A DNA stretch of 64,000 bases from positions 1-64,000 of the forward strand of contig NZ_FNCE01000001.1 of the NCBI RefSeq assembly GCF_900100655.1. Direction: 5' to 3'. The translations under genes and the position numbers were made by a program. The notes beneath the pieces are model-generated. The model did no database searches. It was given only the letters and a program-made list of their open reading frames with translations, and was not told the DNA's origin. Below are positions 2,402-25,025 of the stretch, one piece after another. The stretch is from Limimonas halophila. GTDB taxonomy: Bacteria; Pseudomonadota; Alphaproteobacteria; Kiloniellales; Rhodovibrionaceae. Positions within the stretch are counted from its first letter, which is position 1, and each line of letters begins with the position of its first letter.

Positions 2402-3178
2402 TCAGTCTTCCACCGGAACGGTGTAGTTGAGCGCCAGGCGCCCGCCGTCGGCGTAGATGCACTCGCCCGTGATGTAGCTGGACTCGGGGGAGGCCAGGAA
2501 GGCCGCGATCTGGGCGATCTCGTCCGGCTCACCCAGGCGGCCCATGGGCGTGCGGCTCATCACCGCGCGCCACTTCTCCGGATCGCTGGCGACCTGCTTG
2601 ACCATCTCCGTGCCGATCGAGCCCGGTCCGATGGCGTTGGCGCGGATGCCGTGCTTGGCAAGGCCCAGCGCCTCCACTTTGGTCAGCTGGTTGATGCCGC
2701 CCTTGCTGGCGACGTAGGGCGCGATCTCCGGGATCGCCACGACGGCGTTGATCGAGGACATGTTGACGATCGTGCCGCCGCCGCCCTGGGCGACCATCTG
2801 GCGCGCGGCGGCCTGGCCGGTGAGGAAGGCGCCTTTCAGGTTGGTGCGGATGACGCGGTCGAAATCCGTCTCGTCAAGCTCAAGGAAATCCGCCTTGGCC
2901 ACCAAAGCGGCGTTGGCGACGGCGCAATCCAGCCGCCCGTAGGTGTCCACCGCACGCTGGATCAGCGCGTCCACCTGCGACCGGTCCCCGACGTCGCAGG
3001 GCTGATAGACGGCCTCCCCGCCGGCGTCGCGGATGCCCTTTGCGGCGGCCTCGCCGCCGGCGTCGTCCACGTCCGCGAGCACCACCTTCGCGCCTTCACG
3101 GGCGAAGCGCTCGGCGACGGCCTGGCCGATGCCCTGGGCCGCGCCGGTGATGACGGCGACCTGGTTTTCCAGCCGCAT
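2402..3178 (-). CDS. Short-chain dehydrogenase/reductase (SDR)
   Basis: A 258-residue classical SDR, cytoplasmic, NAD(P)-dependent. Visible signatures are the cofactor motif TGAAQGIG (residues 11-18), Asp36 following the second strand (suggesting NAD rather than NADP), Asn113, Ser142 and the catalytic YVASK (Tyr155, Lys159). The ATG at 3178 is preceded by GAGGAGGCAAGG and matches the usual SDR start; the frame is open 126 bases further upstream. The terminal segment 'YITGECIYADGGRLALNYTVPVED' closes the fold normally. Substrate cannot be told from sequence. It is convergent with trcR. Confidence 0.9.
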   Translation of the reverse strand: MRLENQVAVITGAAQGIGQAVAERFAREGAKVVLADVDDAGGEAAAKGIRDAGGEAVYQPCDVGDRSQVDALIQRAVDTYGRLDCAVANAALVAKADFLELDETDFDRVIRTNLKGAFLTGQAAARQMVAQGGGGTIVNMSSINAVVAIPEIAPYVASKGGINQLTKVEALGLAKHGIRANAIGPGSIGTEMVKQVASDPEKWRAVMSRTPMGRLGEPDEIAQIAAFLASPESSYITGECIYADGGRLALNYTVPVED

Positions 3179-3324
3179 CCTTGCCTCCTCTGGTCGCGGT
3201 TCTTCGGACAACCTGTAGCAGACGGCAACGCCGCCGCAGAGGGGCGCCGCACGCACCGGCGCGGCATCGGGCTCACGCCCTCGTGAGGCGCGAGTGAGGC
3301 GCACGCTTTACAGGCGTCGCGCGG

Positions 3325-3418
3325 TTTCTTACTATTGCTCAAAATTTTGGATATCTTGTCCGCAGCATTTGGAACGGTCGTTTTGCATGTTCGTGAAATA
3401 ATTTGAGGCAAAATACAA
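3325..3418 (+). promoter_or_regulatory. AT-rich promoter region of the chemoreceptor gene
   Basis: A sharply AT-rich patch within very GC-rich surroundings, containing runs such as CAAAATTTTGGATAT and GAAATAATTTGAGGCAAAATAC. It lies between the divergent SDR and chemoreceptor genes. Precise -35/-10 boxes cannot be fixed by eye; a sigma-54 reading was tested and rejected because of spacing. Confidence 0.5.
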
Positions 3419-3487
3419 GGCGCGAAAGTCCCGGGTTCAGTCCGGCGAGGGGGCGATGGTGCGGACGCTTTTGACCGGCGGGAAACA

Positions 3488-5395
3488 ATGAGCGAGCGTG
3501 CGGCGGACAACCGGGCGCCGGGCTTCGTGCGCGGGCACGGCGTAACGATCGCGGTGGCGCTGGCGTTCCTGGCCGTGTTGACCAGCGCGGCCTTCGTCGG
3601 GCGCGACATGACGGCGCGCTACGAGACCATCGTCGGTGACTTCCAGCACAAGCAAACCAAGCAGATGGTGCAGGTGCAGGTCGCCGAGATGGCCTGGCAG
3701 CGCTACGCCGGCACCGTGACCCAGGTGGCGGTGCGGTCGGCGTCCAACGACGCGTTGGTGAGCGCGCTGCGCGAGCGTGAGACGGACAAGCTCACCGATC
3801 TGCTGGGCGAGGAGTTCAACCAGGAGGCGATCTCGACCGGCCAAGTCGTGCTCCACGGCGTCGGCGCCTACGACACCGACGGCAACCGCGTCGCGCGCAC
3901 CTGGCAGGACGTCGGCCCGGCGCCGCTGCCGGACGCCCTGATGGACAAGATCTATGGGCGCGAGGGCGCGAGCCGGCTGGAGGCCGTGGAGCACGCCTGG
4001 ACGCACCAGGGGCGGCCCCTGCTGTCGGTCGCGGTGCCGCTGGGCGGGCTGCAGCTCCACGGCTATCTGGTGATGCACTTCGACGTGCTGCACGCCCTGC
4101 GCAACCTGGACAGCAACCTCGACCGCGAGGTGACCTTCCTCACCGCCGGCGGCGGCGAGGTGCTCACGCGGCTGTCGCACATCGACCTGCCCGACAGCGC
4201 GCAGACCCGCGTGGTCGAGGTGCCCATCGCCACGCCCGGCGGCGCGCCGCTGATGACCGCGCGCATCCGCCAGGACGTCTCCAGCCTGATGACCCGGCTG
4301 GCGGACGCGCGGCGAACGTCCTTCATCACCTTCCTGATCGTCTGCGGCACCACCGGCCTTGCCGCGGTGGGCCTGATCGCCGTGGTCTTCGCCCGCATGC
4401 GCCGGCGCGAGGCGGCGATGCGCGAGCGCGAGGAGGCTATGCGCGCGGATGCCGAGCGCGCGCGGCTGGACCAGGAGCGCTCGGAGCGCCAGCGGGTGGA
4501 GAACGACAAGGCGCGCGAGCTGCGCCAGGCCCTGGTCTCGCTGTGCGACGACATCGAGCAGGACACCAATGCCCTGTTCGGCGAGATCCAGAACAAGGCC
4601 GGCTCGATGCGCGAGCTGGCCACGAGCATGACCGGCGGCATGCGCTCGATCGAGGACCGCGCCCAGGCGATGCGCGACACCGCCACCGCCGCCGCCGACA
4701 ACGTGCAGGCCGTCGCCTCCGCGACCGAGGAGCTGACGCAGTCCAGCCAGGACATCCGCGGGCGCACCACGGAAGCCACGCGCCACATCTCGGAAGCGGC
4801 GGATCTGGCGCGGCGCTGCGACAGCCAGACCCAGCAGCTCGAAACCTACGCGGAAAAGATCGGCGGCGCGGTGAAGCTCATCCGCGAGATCGCCGAGCAG
4901 ACCAACCTGCTTGCGCTCAACGCCACGATCGAGGCGGCGCGCGCCGGGGAGGCGGGCAAGGGCTTCGCCGTCGTGGCGAACGAGATCAAGCAGCTCGCCA
5001 ATCAGGTCGCCAAGGCCACGGACGAGATCTCGGAGCAGGTCACCGGCATTCAGAGCGCGACGCAGGAGTCCGTTTCGGCCATCCGCACGGTTTCCGAAAC
5101 CATCGCCAAGGTCGAGGAAACCGCCGGCACCATCGCGGACTCCGTGACACAGCAGGACCAGGCCACCCAGGACATCGCGGGCCACATCCAGAGCGCCTCC
5201 GACGGCATCCAGGACGTGGCCGCCAAGGTCGCGGAGACGGCCGAGGAAACGCGTACAACCACGCAGATGAGCGATCAGGTCAACGACTCCGCCGTCGAGG
5301 TGTCGCAGCGCCTCGACCGGGCGCTCGACGAACTCACGGACAAGCTGGCGCGCACGCGCGCCGAGAACGGGGCCGGGCAAGGGGACGCGGCCTGA
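3488..5395 (+). CDS. Methyl-accepting chemotaxis protein
   Basis: A 635-residue transmembrane chemoreceptor. An N-terminal membrane helix (about residues 14-37) is followed by a periplasmic sensor region of about 240 residues with no recognised PAS or Cache signature by eye, then a second membrane helix (about 280-303), an Arg/Glu-rich signalling linker and the cytoplasmic coiled-coil domain. The signalling tip reads '[20 protein letters not shown]' and '[17 protein letters not shown]', the hallmark for CheA/CheW binding. The C-terminus lacks a CheR-tethering NWETF-like pentapeptide. No che genes for the core kinase lie in the window. The ligand is unknown. Confidence 0.95.
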
Positions 5396-5434
5396 GCGCC
5401 GCAGGCTTCACGCCACATCGAAGGGGGAACGACC

Positions 5435-5872
5435 ATGCTGAACACGATCAAGGCCACGCTGGCGGCGCTGGCCGCCGTCGCCGTGCTCGGCGGCGCGGCG
5501 CAGGCCGCGGACGACGAGAAGGCGCCCATGCAGATCGACGGCGCCACGACCGTCGACGCCGACAAGGTGATCCAACTTTATAAAAACAAAGACAAACTGA
5601 AGATCATCGATTCCCGCAAGCCCGGCGACTACAAGGCCGGTCACATCGAAACGGCGACCAACCTGCCCAACACCGAGACCAACGCCGAGACGCTGAGCGA
5701 GCATCTGGCGTCCAAGAGCACACCCGTTCTCTTCTACTGCAACGGCGTCAAGTGCGGGCGTGCCGCAGATGCCGTGAAAACGGCCGTGAACGCGGGCTAC
5801 GAGAACGTCTACTACTACGCCCTCGGCATGGCGGAGTGGAAGAAGAAGGGCCTACCGCTCGTGCAGGAGTGA
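5435..5872 (+). CDS. Secreted rhodanese-domain protein
   Basis: A 145-residue protein with a signal peptide (residues 1-24, ending AAQA-ADD), so likely periplasmic. The rhodanese fold is shown by 'IIDSRKPGDYKAGHIETATNLP' and the active-site loop 'YCNGVKCGRA', with Cys102 in the catalytic position and a second Cys107. Single-domain periplasmic rhodaneses move sulfane sulfur or act on oxidised sulfur carriers; which is not deducible here. It follows the chemoreceptor gene by 39 bases with its own AGGGGGAACGACC ribosome-binding site, so the two may be cotranscribed. Confidence 0.88.
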   Translation: MLNTIKATLAALAAVAVLGGAAQAADDEKAPMQIDGATTVDADKVIQLYKNKDKLKIIDSRKPGDYKAGHIETATNLPNTETNAETLSEHLASKSTPVLFYCNGVKCGRAADAVKTAVNAGYENVYYYALGMAEWKKKGLPLVQE

Positions 5873-5902
5873 GCGCCGGCCCGCACCGCCTTGACGTGCA
5901 AG

Positions 5903-5934
5903 CGCCCCGCCGGCCGGACCGGCGGGGCGTTGTC
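5903..5934. terminator. Bidirectional hairpin terminator
   Basis: Perfect 11-bp stem CGCCCCGCCGG / CCGGCGGGGCG with a 5-base loop, followed on the plus strand by TTGT. It sits between the convergent rhodanese and methylmalonyl-CoA mutase genes and probably serves both. Confidence 0.7.
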
Positions 5935-5948
5935 GTCTCCGGCCCCGC

Positions 5949-8099
5949 TTACGCCGCGCGGGCGGGCGTGATCAGTTCCAGGATGTCGCGGGCGGCGCGG
6001 GGGATGGGCGTGCCCGGCCCGAAGATCGCGGCGACGCCCTCGTTCAAGAGGCGCTCGTGCTCCTGGTGCGGGATGACGCCGCCGCAGACGACGCGGATAT
6101 CGGCGGCGTCCTGCTGGCGCAGCTCGTCCAGCAGGTCGGGCACGAGCGTGCCGTGCGCGCCCGCCTGGGTGGAGACGCCGATGACGTGGACGTCGTTCTC
6201 GATGGCCTGTTGCACGGCCTCGGCGGGCGTCTGGAAGAGCGGGCCCACGTCCACGTCGAAGCCGATGTCGGCGAAGGCGCTGGCGATCACCTTGGCGCCG
6301 CGGTCGTGGCCGTCCTGGCCCATCTTCACCACCAGCATGCGCGGCCGGCGCCCGGCCTGCTCGGCGAAAGCGCGCACGTCGGCGCGCACCTTCTCGAAGG
6401 TCTCGTCGCCTTCGTAGGCGGCGCCGTAGACGCCGGAGATCGTGCTCGTCGCCGCCTTGTGCCGGCCGAAGACGCGCTCCAGGGCGTCCGAGGCCTCGCC
6501 CACCGTGGCGCGGGCGCGCATGGCCTCGATCGTCAGCGCCAGCAGGTTGGACTCGCCGTCGCGCGCGCCGTCCTCCAGCGCCTGGAGCGCCCGGTTTACG
6601 GTGTCCGGGTCGCGCTCGGCGCGCACGCGCTCCAGCTTTTTGGATTGGTCGGCCAGCACCTTGCGGTTGTCGATGGCGCGCACCTCGACCTCGTCGCGCT
6701 CGGGCGGCCGGTAGGCGTTGACGCCGACGAGGATGTCCTCGCCCCGGTCGACGCGGGCCTGGCGGCGCGCGGCGGCCTCCTCGATGCGGCGCTTGGCGGT
6801 GCCCGCCTCCACGGCGCGCGTCATGCCGCCCTGTTCCTCGATCTCGTCGATGAGGGCCTGGGCGCGCTCCATGAGGTCGCTGGTGAGCTTTTCCACGTAG
6901 TAGCTGCCGCCCAGCGGATCGACGGTGTCGCCGACGCCCGTTTCGTCGCGCAGGACCAGCTGGGTGTTGCGCGCCAGCCGCGCGGAGAAGTCGCTCGGCA
7001 GCGCCACGGCCTCGTCGAGCGCGTTGGTGTGCAGCGACTGCGTGCCGCCCAGCACGGCGGCCAGCGCCTCCACGGTGGTGCGCACGACGTTGGTGTAGGG
7101 GTCCTGCTCCTGCAGCGAGACGCCGGAGGTCTGGCAGTGCGTGCGCAGCGCCAGCGAGCGCGGGTCCTGCGGCTCGAACTGCTGCATCAGCCTGGCCCAC
7201 AGCGTGCGCGCGGCGCGCAGCTTGGCGACCTCCATGAAGAGGTTGGTGCCGATCGCGAAGAAGAAGGAGACGCGCGGGGCGAACTGGTCCACGTCGAGCC
7301 CGCGGGCGCGGGCGGTGCGCACGTACTCCAGCCCGTCCGCCAGGGTGTAGGCCAGCTCCTGGTCCGCCGTCGCCCCGGCCTCGTGCATGTGATAGCCGGA
7401 GACGGAGATGGCGTTGAACCTGGGCATGTGGTGGGCGCAGTGGGCCATGATGTCGGCCACGATGCGCATCGAGGGCTGGGGCGGGTAGATGTAGGTGTTG
7501 CGGACCAGGAACTCCTTGAGGATGTCGTTCTGGATCGTGCCCGCGAGCTTGTCCTGGGAAACGCCCTGTTCCTCCGCCGCCACGATGAAGGACGCCAGCA
7601 CGGGCAGCACCGCGCCGTTCATCGTCATCGACACCGTCATCTGATCCAGCGGCACGCCGTCGAAGAGGATCTTCATGTCCTCGACGGTATCGATGGCGAC
7701 GCCCGCCTTGCCCACGTCGCCGGAGACGCGCGGGTGGTCGCTGTCGTAGCCGCGGTGCGTGGGCAGGTCGAAGGCGACGGAAAGGCCCGTCTGCCCGGCC
7801 TTCAGCGCGTCGTGGTAGAAGCGGTTGGTTTCCTCCGCCGTGGAGAAGCCGGCGTACTGCCGGATCGTCCAGGCGCGGTTGGTGTACATCGTCGCCCGCG
7901 GGCCGCGCGTGTAGGGCGGGAAACCGGGCATCGAGCCCAGGTGGTCCAGGCCCGCCAGCGCGTCCTCGGTGTAGAGCGGGTCGATGCGGATGCCCTCGGG
8001 GGTGTCGCGCGCCAGCCCCTCGGGATCGTCGCCCTTCAGCTCGCGCCGCGCCTTGTCGGCCCAGTCGTCGCGGGTGCGCTTGGGAAACCCGTCGGCCAC
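5949..8099 (-). CDS. Methylmalonyl-CoA mutase, single-chain form
   Basis: A 716-residue adenosylcobalamin enzyme interconverting (R)-methylmalonyl-CoA and succinyl-CoA, cytoplasmic. The N-terminal substrate domain carries '[20 protein letters not shown]' and the C-terminal B12-binding domain has the DxHxxG motif 'DGHDRG' with His598 as cobalt ligand, then '[10 protein letters not shown]' and 'CGGVIPHQE'. The start is taken as GTG at 8099, with a GAGGTGG ribosome-binding site directly upstream; the frame is open to 8189 but that extension is not family-like. No small mutase subunit or MeaB-type chaperone is nearby. It would join propionyl-CoA to the TCA cycle, which suits a PHA-producing organism. 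Confidence 0.95.
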
Positions 8100-8239
8100 G
8101 ATGCCACCTCTTCGGCTGCTCGGCTGGTTGGCAGGATATCGCCGCGACGGTGTGTGAGTCGATGCACCGCAAAACGGCCCGGCTTGCATCGGACCCGACG
8201 TGGGTCGAAGCTGTCCGCGCCAACCGCAGGGAGGTGAGC

Positions 8240-9139
8240 GTGAACGCGAAGCTGAAACGGCTGACCGACGGCGGGCGGCTGCTGCTCGACGGCGGCCTGG
8301 GCGAGGAACTGGTGAACCGCGGGATCGACACCTCGACCGGGCTGTGGTCGGCGCAGGCGCTGCTGTCCGAGCCCGACAAGGTGGTCGCCGCCCACCGCGA
8401 CTTCATCGACGCCGGCGCGGACGTGCTGACCACGAACAGCTACAGCACCACGCGCCGGCGCTTTCCCGACGACGGCGACTTCCAGCGCATGAACCGCAGC
8501 GCCGGGGCGTTGGCGCAACGCGCCCGGGCGGAGGCCGAACGCGACGTCGCCATCGCGGGCTCGCTGCCGCCCATCTTCGGCAGCTACCGGCCGGAGCTCG
8601 TGCGCCCCATGGCGGAGCTGGAGCCGCTCTACCGCGCGCAGGCGGACATCCTGGCCGAGTACGTCGACCTCTTCCTGTGCGAGACGATGTCCACCAGCGG
8701 CGAGGCCCTGGCGGCGGCGCGGGCCGCGGCGGCGACGGGCCTGCCGGTGTGGGTGTCGTGGACACTGGCGGACGACGGCACGGGCAAGCTGCGCAGCGGT
8801 GAGACCGTCACCCAAGCGGTCGAGGCGCTCGACGGCCTCGACGTGCGTGCCGTGCTGGTAAACTGCGCCATCCCGGAAAGCGTGGACGCCGCGCTGCCGG
8901 AGCTCGCACGCGCCGCCGCCGGGCGCCCCTTCGGCGCCTACGCCAACGCCTTCCAGCCCATCGCGCCGGGCACGGGCGTCAACGACGGCCGCGAGCTGCC
9001 GGACGCGCGCGCGGACCTCGGCCCCGACGCCTATGCGGATTTCGCCGGCGGCTGGCTGGATGCGGGCGCGCGCATCGTCGGCGGCTGCTGCGAGGTCGGA
9101 CCAAGCCACATCGCGCGGCTGAAGGAACGCTTCTTCTGA
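8240..9139 (+). CDS. Homocysteine S-methyltransferase family protein
   Basis: A 299-residue cytoplasmic TIM-barrel methyltransferase. The N-terminal strand '[18 protein letters not shown]' and the zinc-binding cysteines in 'VNCAIPES' and near the C-terminus '[11 protein letters not shown]' match the MmuM/BHMT family, which methylates homocysteine to methionine using S-methylmethionine or a related donor. The start is taken as GTG 8240 because it follows AGGGAGGTGAGC and fits the family start. It is divergent from methylmalonyl-CoA mutase across about 140 bases. The methyl donor is not deducible; no corrinoid-binding domain is attached, unlike MetH. Confidence 0.88.
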
Positions 9140-10545: not shown

Positions 10546-10908
10546 ATGACGCTGTCCGTCATCGTCGCCGACGACTCCACGCTCGGCCGCAAGCAGGTGA
10601 TGCGCGCGCTGCCGGCGGACTGGGACGCCGAGGTGCGTCAGGCGAAGAACGGGGAGGAAACCCTGGCGGCTGTGCGCCAGGGCGCGGACCTGCTCTTCCT
10701 CGACCTCACGATGCCGGACTACACGGGCTTCGACGTGCTGCAGATGATGGGCGACGAAGGCATCGTCTGCCCCACCTTCGTGGTCTCCGCGGACGTGCAG
10801 CCCCGCGCCATCGAGCGCGCCAAGGGGCTGGGGGCGCTCACCTTCGTCGAAAAGCCGGTGGACGCGGAGAAGCTCCAGGCCGCGCTGGCAGAGCACGGGT
10901 TCCGCTGA
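10546..10908 (+). CDS. CheY-like single-domain response regulator
   Basis: A 120-residue stand-alone receiver domain with no output domain. All catalytic positions are present: the acidic pair Asp9-Asp10, phospho-acceptor Asp53 (FLDLTMPD), Ser81 in the switch position and Lys103 (EKPV). The start ATG is preceded by GGGGAGGAGCC. The stop overlaps the next gene's start (TGATG), so it is translationally coupled to a CheC-like phosphatase, a natural candidate to dephosphorylate it. No histidine kinase is adjacent; the nearest in the window is at 22.6 kb. Confidence 0.92.
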   Translation: MTLSVIVADDSTLGRKQVMRALPADWDAEVRQAKNGEETLAAVRQGADLLFLDLTMPDYTGFDVLQMMGDEGIVCPTFVVSADVQPRAIERAKGLGALTFVEKPVDAEKLQAALAEHGFR

Positions 10909-11522
10909 TGGTCGAGCCGCTCTCGGAAGATCAGGCGGACGCCCTCCAGGAGGTGACGAACGTCGCCATGGGCCGGGCGGCACGCTCGCTGTCCACCTTG
11001 CTGGACACCTTCGTCACCCTGGCGGTGCCGCGCGTGCAGGTGGTGGACGCCGCCAACGCCGCCGAGGCCGTGCAGGAAACCGCGCATCTCCCCGGCACGG
11101 TGACGGCCGTGCGCCAGGCCTTCTTCCACGGCCTGCGCGGGGAGGCGCTGACGCTCTTCGCGCCGGGCGGCGGCCACAACGTCGCCGATCTCCTGGGCCT
11201 CGACGCCGACGACGCGGATCAGCCGCCCGAGGACGAAATCCTCATCGAGACCTCCAACATCCTCGTGGGCGCGATCCTCAGCGGGCTGGGCGAACAGCTG
11301 GACACCCAGTTCAGCTACACGCCGCCGTCGGTGTTCGCCAAGAACACGCCCATGGACCGTGTGCTCGACCCAGGTGATCTGGAGTGGACGACGGCGCTGC
11401 TGGTGGAGGTGACCTTCACGCTGGAATCGCGCAACTTCGTCTGCCACGTCCTCGTGCTGCTGGCCGAAGACTCCATCGCCGTGATCCGCCAGGCGCTGGA
11501 CCGGCTGCTTGAAGACTTGTAA
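10908..11522 (+). CDS. CheC-like receiver phosphatase
   Basis: A 204-residue protein with two copies of the CheC-family phosphatase motif ExxN-x22-P: Glu15, Asn18, Pro41, and again Glu114, Asn117, Pro140. In CheC, CheX and FliY these residues insert into phospho-CheY and speed its dephosphorylation. The rest aligns with the duplicated alpha-beta CheC fold, and there is no membrane segment. It is sandwiched between a CheY-like receiver (1-base overlap) and a PAS-GGDEF protein that begins directly after its stop codon. The partner and rate are inference; the motifs are directly visible. Confidence 0.88.
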   Translation: MVEPLSEDQADALQEVTNVAMGRAARSLSTLLDTFVTLAVPRVQVVDAANAAEAVQETAHLPGTVTAVRQAFFHGLRGEALTLFAPGGGHNVADLLGLDADDADQPPEDEILIETSNILVGAILSGLGEQLDTQFSYTPPSVFAKNTPMDRVLDPGDLEWTTALLVEVTFTLESRNFVCHVLVLLAEDSIAVIRQALDRLLEDL

Positions 11523-12485
11523 ATGACGCAGACCTCCGAACCCGGCCCCGACTTCGCCGCGCTGGTCGACAACATCAACGTCGGCATCGTGGTCGTGAAC
11601 CGCGACTTCGAGATTGTGTCGTGGAACCGCTTCATGGCGGCGCACAGCGGCCACGGCGCCGACGCGGTGGTGGGCCGGAACATCTTCGAGGCGTTCCCGG
11701 AGCTGCCGCAGCGCTGGCTCAAGCAAAAGCTGCGCAGCGTCTTCCTGCTCAACCACCAGGCCTTCTCGTCCTGGGAACACCGGCCCTATCTTTTCGAATT
11801 CCCGCACAACCGCCCCATCACGGGCGGCGTGGACGCGATGCGCCAGGACTGCACCTTCTTCCCCATTCCGGACGACAGCGGCGAGCCGGCCTACGTCTGC
11901 ATCACCATCTTCGACATGACGGACGCCAGCATCTACCAGGAGCGCCTGCAGCGCACGAAGCAGGACCTGGAGGAGCTGAGCGCGCGCGACCGGCTGACGT
12001 GGCTGTACAACCGCGGCCAGTTCGAAACCGAGCTGCACGCCGCCTTCAAGCACCGCGAGCGCCACGGCGGGCATTTGGCGGTAATCCTGCTGGACATCGA
12101 CCACTTCAAGACGATCAACGACCACCAGGGCCACGACACCGGCGACGCCGTGCTGCGCCACCTCGCCGTGTGCATCCGCGACAGCATCCGCGCCAGCGAC
12201 GTGGCCGGCCGCTTCGGCGGGGAGGAGTTCGCGCTCTTCCTGCCGGAGACCGACATCGCCGGCGCGCGCGCCGCCGCCGAACGCCTGCGCCAGCACATCC
12301 ACGAACACCCGGCCGAGCACAACGGCATGGCCGTCGGCATCACGGTCAGCATGGGCGTCAGCGAGGCCACCGACGGCATGCCGGACCCGGAGGCCCTGAT
12401 GAAGGAGGCCGACCTGGCCCTGTATCAGGCCAAGGAAGCCGGCCGCGACCGCATCGTCGTGTACGGGGAAAACGGCGCCGGCTAA
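11523..12485 (+). CDS. PAS-GGDEF diguanylate cyclase
   Basis: A 320-residue soluble protein. An N-terminal PAS sensor (about residues 10-135, 'VDNINVGIVVVNRDFEIVSW') is joined by a short helical linker to a GGDEF domain. The active site is GGEEF (232-236), so cyclic-di-GMP synthesis is expected. An RxxD inhibitory site (Arg223-Asp226) sits five residues before it, implying product feedback. No EAL domain is present. It starts at the base after the stop of the CheC-like gene, so the three genes form one operon. The PAS ligand is unknown; no haem- or flavin-binding residues are obvious. Confidence 0.93.
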   Translation: MTQTSEPGPDFAALVDNINVGIVVVNRDFEIVSWNRFMAAHSGHGADAVVGRNIFEAFPELPQRWLKQKLRSVFLLNHQAFSSWEHRPYLFEFPHNRPITGGVDAMRQDCTFFPIPDDSGEPAYVCITIFDMTDASIYQERLQRTKQDLEELSARDRLTWLYNRGQFETELHAAFKHRERHGGHLAVILLDIDHFKTINDHQGHDTGDAVLRHLAVCIRDSIRASDVAGRFGGEEFALFLPETDIAGARAAAERLRQHIHEHPAEHNGMAVGITVSMGVSEATDGMPDPEALMKEADLALYQAKEAGRDRIVVYGENGAG

Positions 12486-22588: not shown

Positions 22589-24475
<1,887 letters not shown>

Positions 24476-24676
24476 ACCAAAGATGTAGCAAGCTTGGGAT
24501 GAACACACCAGCAGATTTTCAATATTTAAATTAATTCGCGCCGAATTTGGGCGGCTTCGATGCGGTATTGCCGGGGACCCGTCGGCGGTCCGACGGCGCG
24601 GCCGGCGCCGGGCCGTTTGCGCGCCGGGCGCGCATGGCGCAGGCTCACGCGTGCGGACAGGCACAGGGAGGCCACG
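24476..24676. promoter_or_regulatory. Divergent promoter region
   Basis: Space between the histidine kinase gene and a small membrane-protein gene. It contains an AT-rich core around 24510-24540 (TTTTCAATATTTAAATTAATT), exceptional in this GC-rich sequence and a likely promoter for the kinase gene. No operator is recognised. Confidence 0.45.
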
Positions 24677-24943
24677 ATGTGGGGCAGGCGGCCCGTCAGC
24701 ATTCCGCTCTTGCGGCTTGCCGGCACACTCTCGGCGGTGGCGGCGGCGATCCTGCTGGTTGCGGCCGTTGCGGTCTTCACCGGCGGCAGCGTCGGGTGGG
24801 GCGCGGCCGGCGTGCCGCTGGGCATCGTCTTCGTCGCGGCGGCCGTGGTGGTGGCGTTCGCCGCCGCGATGCTTTTCGGCTTCGCCACCAACCTGGATCT
24901 GCTGCACGCCATTCGGGAGCAGCTGCGCGGCCGGCGTTTCTGA
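24677..24943 (+). CDS. Small two-helix membrane protein
   Basis: An 88-residue protein with two strongly hydrophobic segments (about residues 10-33 and 40-66) and short charged ends, finishing 'HAIREQLRGRRF'. A good ribosome-binding site (AGGGAGGCCACG) precedes the ATG. No known family; function cannot be assigned. Confidence 0.6.
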   Translation: MWGRRPVSIPLLRLAGTLSAVAAAILLVAAVAVFTGGSVGWGAAGVPLGIVFVAAAVVVAFAAAMLFGFATNLDLLHAIREQLRGRRF

Positions 24944-24952
24944 CGGCACACC

Positions 24953-24987
24953 AAAACGCCCCGGACCGTCAGGCCCGGGGCGCGTTT
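24953..24987. terminator. Bidirectional terminator
   Basis: AAAA, then an 8-bp stem CGCCCCGG (24957-24964) / CCGGGGCG (24975-24982), then CGTTTC. It sits between the convergent small membrane-protein gene and ilvE and fits a terminator used from both sides. Confidence 0.65.
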
Positions 24988-25025
24988 CACTCGCCGCGAC
25001 GTGACCCGTTCAGCGTGCCGCCGGT

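Follow-up and report, generated by a model that had tools for sequence, protein, structure and literature searches.

A receiver, CheC and PAS-GGDEF gene trio in Limimonas halophila, a distant relative of the Burkholderia PdcABC switch

Can a stand-alone receiver, a CheC-type phosphatase and a PAS-GGDEF diguanylate cyclase, encoded gene to gene away from chemotaxis genes, act as one switch of cyclic-di-GMP (c-di-GMP), and is such a switch already known? The question is raised by the window analyzed here, a stretch of 64,000 nucleotides of Limimonas halophila (positions 1 to 64,000 of contig NZ_FNCE01000001.1). The original prediction had proposed a direct link between receiver dephosphorylation and c-di-GMP and had known of no worked-out system with this exact trio. 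The latter statement is superseded by PdcABC of Burkholderia thailandensis (PMC9899790, PMC12421958), whereas the link is retained as the best reading of the locus, by homology to PdcABC. The trio would become a testable switch with a known mechanism, the system itself being already known.

Organization and catalytic residues of the trio

The receiver, CheC and PAS-GGDEF genes form one unit coupled gene to gene, with the catalytic motifs intact (Table 1). Reading-frame analysis placed the receiver start at ATG 10546, downstream of the Shine-Dalgarno-like stretch GGGGAGGA, and its stop TGA at 10906-10908. The CheC start ATG (10908) overlaps this stop (TGATG, 10906-10910), and the CheC stop TAA (11520-11522) abuts the cyclase start ATG (11522/11523), the cyclase ending at 12485. 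The coupling described by the original prediction was thus confirmed by an overlap and an abutting stop and start.

Table 1. Features of the trio and the matches that define them.
Feature	Coordinates	Strand	Evidence
Stand-alone CheY-like receiver, PdcC type	10546..10908	+	Pfam Response_reg E 1.2e-18; 49% identity to L028 receiver
CheC-type phosphatase, two ExxN-x22-P motifs, PdcB type	10908..11522	+	Pfam CheC E 6.1e-8; 40% identity to L028 protein
PAS-GGDEF diguanylate cyclase, PdcA type, GGEEF + RxxD	11523..12485	+	Pfam GGDEF E 3.5e-46, PAS E 3.9e-9
Pdc-type PAS domain, proposed docking site for the phosphorylated receiver	11550..11942	+	profile A5 E 2.6e-58

The receiver harbors D9, D10, D53, S81 and K103; D9, D10, D53 and K103 occur in all 117 receivers of PAS-GGDEF loci, the window counted in. 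The cyclase carries the active-site motif GGEEF and, five residues ahead, RASD, an RxxD inhibition site. With its GGDEF domain and GGEEF motif, the protein is predicted to be an active diguanylate cyclase. NCBIfam matches to the three proteins (for the receiver, the best 25 of 71) fell in the same superfamilies as those of Pfam, and only GGDEF and PAS domain models scored above cut-off.

For the second protein, the Pfam CheX model came close behind CheC (8e-8), and the nearest solved relatives by sequence were Thermotoga FliY and CheC. Both motifs are intact, as originally described (E15-xx-N18-x22-P41 and E114-xx-N117-x22-P140). The AlphaFold2 model, with a mean pLDDT of 87.3, matched Thermotoga maritima CheC (1xkr) with Z 19.3 and rmsd 3.2 over 191 residues at 19% identity, while structure matches outside the CheC/CheX/FliY/FliM group reached Z 4.0 at most. 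The modeled CheC fold and the ExxN-x22-P motifs place the protein in the CheC/CheX/FliY superfamily. It shares this fold and the two-site motif with CheC of T. maritima; however, it is encoded outside any chemotaxis operon and its neighbor is a PAS-GGDEF protein.

Among the 119 CheC proteins of GGDEF loci, which include the window and one PAS-GGDEF-EAL locus, the first motif (E15/N18/P41) was invariant (119/119). In the second motif, E114 was replaced by D in 114 of the 119 proteins, and position N117 was S or T in 26. Alignment therefore points to the first motif as the one under constraint, though the window keeps the full ExxN in both; its PdcABC-type relatives usually have DxxN at the second.

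Relationship to PdcABC of Burkholderia

In B. thailandensis, according to the review PMC9899790, the operon pdcABC encodes the cyclase PdcA, which phosphorylated PdcC inhibits by binding the PAS domain, and the phosphatase PdcB, which raises PdcA activity. In a table of the same review, PdcB appears as a protein with a CheC/CheX domain and PdcC as a response regulator that accepts phosphate, and the repression of PdcA by PdcC is stated again in PMC12421958. The primary study, as related by the review, is Wang et al. 2022 (doi 10.1128/aem.02529-21). The genes are BTH_II2363-II2365, and similar operons are reported for B. pseudomallei (BPSS2342-2344) and B. cenocepacia (Bcam2836 and BCAM2837) (PMC9899790, PMC3296584).

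The window encodes the same three kinds of protein. We compared them with those of the B. cenocepacia locus L028, which comes from a plasmid collection and has the same gene order and the same catalytic residues. The identities were 49% for the receiver, 40% for CheC and 48% for the cyclase, the last over 303 residues. By these comparisons, the window trio is placed as a distant relative of the PdcABC switch, its membership running through B. cenocepacia L028.

Mutants of the relatives have been described. Deletion of the cyclase gene Bcam2836 in B. cenocepacia raised swimming by as much as 18%, and its loss slightly increased attachment in some media (PMC6335245). Deletion of BCAM2837, a gene with CheY and CheC domains that the authors thought to be co-transcribed with the cyclase and kinase genes and that is a pseudogene in strain J2315, impaired swarming and left swimming unaffected (PMC3296584); because receiver and CheC were removed together, it gives no sign of regulation. 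In B. pseudomallei, loss of II2523, the ortholog of Bcam2836, led to more biofilm at 37 C, and the PAS residue N32 was required to complement the biofilm phenotype (PMC9040570). In the relatives, these genes thus influence both motility and biofilm. Loss of the cyclase increases motility, and the effects on biofilm are mixed. The latter differ from the simple fall expected on loss of a cyclase, and we counted them against a PdcABC-type reading.

Conservation of gene order

We scanned a collection of 84,980 species, in which at least 596 stretches matched, 505 of them with a CheC relative, and kept the best 80. These nearest loci comprise 54 from Burkholderiaceae, 15 from Shewanellaceae, five from Oceanospirillaceae and six others. 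Seventy-nine were scorable, L074 being dropped because its CheC is split into stretches of 94 and 90 residues. The receiver was separate and directly upstream of CheC in 63 loci and fused to CheC in 15, so that it lay beside or within the CheC gene in 78 of 79; in the remaining 8-kb locus (L066), tblastn with the window receiver returned nothing at E 1. PAS-GGDEF was found directly downstream of CheC in 78 of the 79, the exception being L075, where it is interrupted. Rare conservation of the trio outside this genome, which the original prediction had named as evidence against it, was accordingly not seen overall; it holds within the trio's own order, where one of 58 genomes has it.

Two of the loci are broken copies: L074 (4986-5618, Candidatus Burkholderia verschuerenii), with CheC in two pieces, and L075 (5618-6432, a metagenome-assembled genome labelled Vsou symbiont), with the interrupted PAS-GGDEF gene.

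In the phylum sample, CheC profile A1 matched 110 of 398 genomes. The 30 loci first returned (L039, the window, was left out) were joined by 10 second copies and by the best match in each of another 70 genomes. About ten weakly matching genomes contributed no locus, and the genomes behind L031 and L034 also occur in the class set. These 109 loci hold 119 CheC proteins. The next gene encoded a PAS-kinase for 48 of them, PAS-GGDEF for 36, PAS alone for 21 and PAS-GGDEF-EAL for one, and no PAS was found for 13. The domain profiles were grown from the collected loci, and "PAS" in the kinase-type loci is a loose call; in L208, which was scored as PAS-only, a HATPase frame of its own follows, and the two may be parts of a split kinase. 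The receiver was fused to CheC in 52 cases and adjacent to it in 40. In the other 27 no adjacent receiver was found, in part because ten loci hold two CheC genes in tandem.

In these tandem loci (L152, L154, L183, L184, L186, L187, L190, L197, L200, L201), the CheC pair is followed by a PAS-kinase that bears one or two receiver domains. In L216, the gene adjoining receiver and CheC encodes a PAS-GGDEF-EAL protein (4119-6206) instead of the cyclase.

Proteins in which receiver and CheC are joined have been listed as a class of response regulators, REC-CheC, for Pseudomonas syringae (PMC2222644). Their receiver is paired with CheC as in the window, and the gammaproteobacterial loci examined continue with a PAS protein of the same subfamily; the window differs in having two genes for receiver and CheC and in the GGDEF domain of its PAS protein. 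One such regulator, Psyr_0886 of P. syringae, was included in a set of receivers tested with the kinase BphP1 (PMC5654926); the gel legend, Table 1 and methods of that paper contain no statement that it was phosphorylated. An AlphaFold model of a Shewanella REC-CheC fusion was poor (mean pLDDT 50.1, pTM 0.38).

Occurrence in the order and class

Within its own order, the window trio is isolated, in contrast to its PdcABC relatives: CheC profile A6 matched this genome alone among the 58 sampled. At E 1e-6, the PAS profile matched 10 of the 385 genomes in the class sample; the window scored 2.6e-58, and the second-best genome 2.3e-14. By CheC, 13 of the 385 genomes matched. The other 12 genomes gave 14 scorable loci (L021 was dropped at a contig end), in which a PAS-kinase came next in nine, no PAS was found in the short flank in four, and one was cut off. 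PdcABC is thereby extended from Burkholderia to an organism with no other Pdc-type copy in the samples of its order (58 genomes) and class (385 genomes). Horizontal gain and survival of an old gene set are both possible. We consider this isolated occurrence, together with the exchange of outputs on the CheC-bound PAS described below, the parts worth following.

Genomic neighborhood and input kinase

By Pfam, the trio is flanked by 2-hydroxyacid dehydrogenase and polyprenyl synthetase genes, both metabolic. For a mutase encoded in the window, the best plasmid matches were from Azospirillum (67.9%), which hints at the class and no further. The genome (3.04 Mb, 26 contigs) contained one CheC match, seven GGDEF matches and nine EAL matches, of which one EAL match fell below the cut-off. 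Its three CheW-family matches form one cluster at about 484-486 kb on the same contig, about 472 kb from the trio. A canonical chemotaxis CheC is encoded with chemotaxis genes; here the flanks are metabolic and the CheW-family cluster is distant, in agreement with the original description of a module without a chemotaxis cluster.

That description had also found no kinase next to the trio, and Pfam analysis of the neighboring genes returned non-kinases. The nearest kinase frame found lies from 22589 onward on the minus strand, about 10 kb away. It came from a scan of window positions 1-24000, the end of which cut the frame (22589-23998); the HATPase profile used had been built on CheC loci, and kinases of other types might escape it. 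Pfam identified the full frame (22589-25006, minus strand) as a PAS-HisKA-HATPase histidine kinase; its first ~430 residues match no Pfam family at E 0.001.

In the Burkholderiaceae loci, by contrast, a divergent gene with a HATPase domain lies upstream in 52 of 54. The two such genes submitted to Pfam, those of L068 and L028, encode kinases that carry a receiver domain at the C terminus and match dCache below threshold. When the L028 kinase was compared with the L. halophila genome, the best match was the hybrid kinase C3:283889 (39%, E 1e-59; next 2.9e-13). It was rejected as the cognate kinase: reading its sequence, we take it to be CckA-type, and it stands just ahead of a frame that we likewise take to be recA-like. 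The lack of an adjoining counterpart of the divergent Burkholderiaceae kinase and the CckA-type reading of the best own-genome match were counted against a PdcABC-type reading, as were the E114 of the second CheC motif and the unsure place of the window within its CheC clade.

In four other loci (L211, L213, L214 and L215), a kinase with two receiver domains is convergent to the PAS-GGDEF gene and is a candidate input kinase there.

Phylogeny of CheC

A CheC tree of 72 rows was computed under a mixture model. The 72 were selected from 166: rows lacking PAS were excluded, as were 11 that were long or unplaced, and the number of rows per group was capped. The kinase-type rows formed one clade (100/100), and the window fell with the GGDEF and PAS-only rows (100/100) as their first branch, at 95/72. 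In a second such tree, of 71 rows and with seven long-branched ones restored, the window lay in a 100/100 clade of 47 rows (29 GGDEF, 17 PAS-only and L007), its sister being L007, a kinase-type row on a very long branch, at 95/53. The kinase-type rows of this tree were not one clade (3 changes), with L007 in the clade of the window and the GGDEF row L151 beside L016, and some long rows fell outside their group. A quick tree of all 166 rows put the window in no well-supported set.

The two mixture-model trees thus group the window CheC with GGDEF and PAS-only rows, apart from nearly all kinase-type rows, its place inside the clade being unsure. The receiver-CheC-PAS-histidine kinase operons (L010, L015-L018 and others) have the order receiver, CheC, PAS as in the window; however, their CheC proteins lie mostly in a clade separate from that of the window. 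PAS-only rows were placed among gammaproteobacterial GGDEF rows in more than one position (4 label changes in the 72-row tree, 5 in the 71-row tree), which suggests repeated loss of GGDEF in gammaproteobacterial PAS-only loci, with the reservation that change counts cannot tell loss from gain.

Proposed mechanism

Gene order and coupling, the intact catalytic residues, the identities to L028 and the conserved co-occurrence of receiver, CheC and PAS lead us to read the trio as, very probably, a PdcABC-type phospho-switch, in which the phosphorylated receiver would inhibit the cyclase through its PAS domain and CheC would relieve this inhibition. A sensor kinase encoded elsewhere would phosphorylate the receiver at D53. 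The phosphorylated receiver would dock on the PAS domain and hold the cyclase inactive; CheC would strip the phosphate, freeing the cyclase so that c-di-GMP rises, and the RxxD site would then limit the product. Inhibition by phospho-PdcC via PAS, and PdcB as its phosphatase, are carried over by analogy from the B. thailandensis literature. We likewise infer that the sign of regulation is the same as in that species and that a distant kinase serves as input.

Some of the evidence could also fit a system that is Pdc-like in its parts and differs in sign or contact, with the phosphorylated receiver activating the cyclase or a receiver-bound CheC touching the PAS domain. CheC as the PAS contact would suit the loci where receiver and CheC are one body, as they are in many species (15 of the 79 nearest loci, 52 of the 119 phylum CheC proteins); a different sign or contact would also suit the deep branching of the window in the CheC trees and the mixed biofilm effects in mutants of the relatives. 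The studied relative, however, is described as working by inhibition through PAS (PMC9899790), and we regard such a departure as improbable.

The CheC-linked PAS subfamily

PAS profile A5 was built from PAS domains beside CheC and was searched against the 398 phylum genomes regardless of position, at most ten candidates being scored per genome. At a cut-off of E 1e-10, it listed 120 matches. Sixty-eight were strong (about 1e-30 or better), and 67 of these had a listed CheC match immediately 5' on the same strand, as did 42 of the 52 weaker ones; the gap from CheC to PAS ranged from -9 to 217 bases over all matched pairs. The lone strong exception, G604, has a CheC match whose position is absent from the match list. 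As defined by this CheC-adjacent profile, the PAS subfamily appears to be rarely found away from CheC.

Among the PAS proteins of the fetched loci, the residues of the PAS domain differed between protein types. In PAS-GGDEF proteins, K69 and W84 were each kept in 116 of 119, R87 in 117 and P98 in all 119. PAS-only proteins had K69, W84 and P98 in 25/25 and R87 in 24/25, and in several records of Vibrio, Pseudomonas, Aeromonas and Salinivibrio, a PAS protein that stands alone beside a fused REC-CheC shares these signature residues. In the 41 kinase-type PAS domains, these four residues were mostly absent; N35 (41/41), Q108 (40/41) and D131 (39/41) were present, and M106 and T133 were kept in most. 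The retention of K69, W84, R87 and P98 without GGDEF would fit a docking surface or pocket of the PAS domain itself.

PAS domains often bind ligands. The three genes might accordingly be co-transcribed only, the PAS domain sensing a small ligand while receiver and CheC serve another pathway, for instance damping the CheA of this genome, which holds one CheW-family cluster and one CheC match. We consider this very unlikely: 67 of the 68 strong subfamily matches adjoin CheC, albeit with a profile built from CheC-adjacent PAS domains, lone PAS proteins keep the signature beside REC-CheC, and the trio lies far from the chemotaxis cluster (~472 kb).

The PdcABC-type switch may be one form of a wider arrangement. 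With somewhat less than even confidence, we propose that receiver, CheC and PAS are a real signalling unit with an exchangeable output, the PAS domain being a dedicated reader of the phosphorylated receiver that is joined to GGDEF, to GGDEF-EAL or to histidine kinases, or stands alone. If so, the receiver would exert feedback on its own kinase wherever the PAS domain belongs to a histidine kinase. Lone PAS proteins would serve as adaptors gated by the receiver and would act on other enzymes in trans, with GGDEF probably lost in gammaproteobacteria. The survey suggests that PAS, rather than the cyclase, is what receiver and CheC stay with, and thereby gives further work a concrete aim in the lone PAS proteins of Vibrio and Pseudomonas.

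In the A5 alignment, the Vibrio coralliilyticus plasmid locus L007 has a kinase behind a PAS domain bearing part of the signature. The genes of this locus (2463-8570) form a single run encoding HDOD, receiver, CheC, PAS-kinase, REC-GGDEF-EAL and HD phosphohydrolase proteins.
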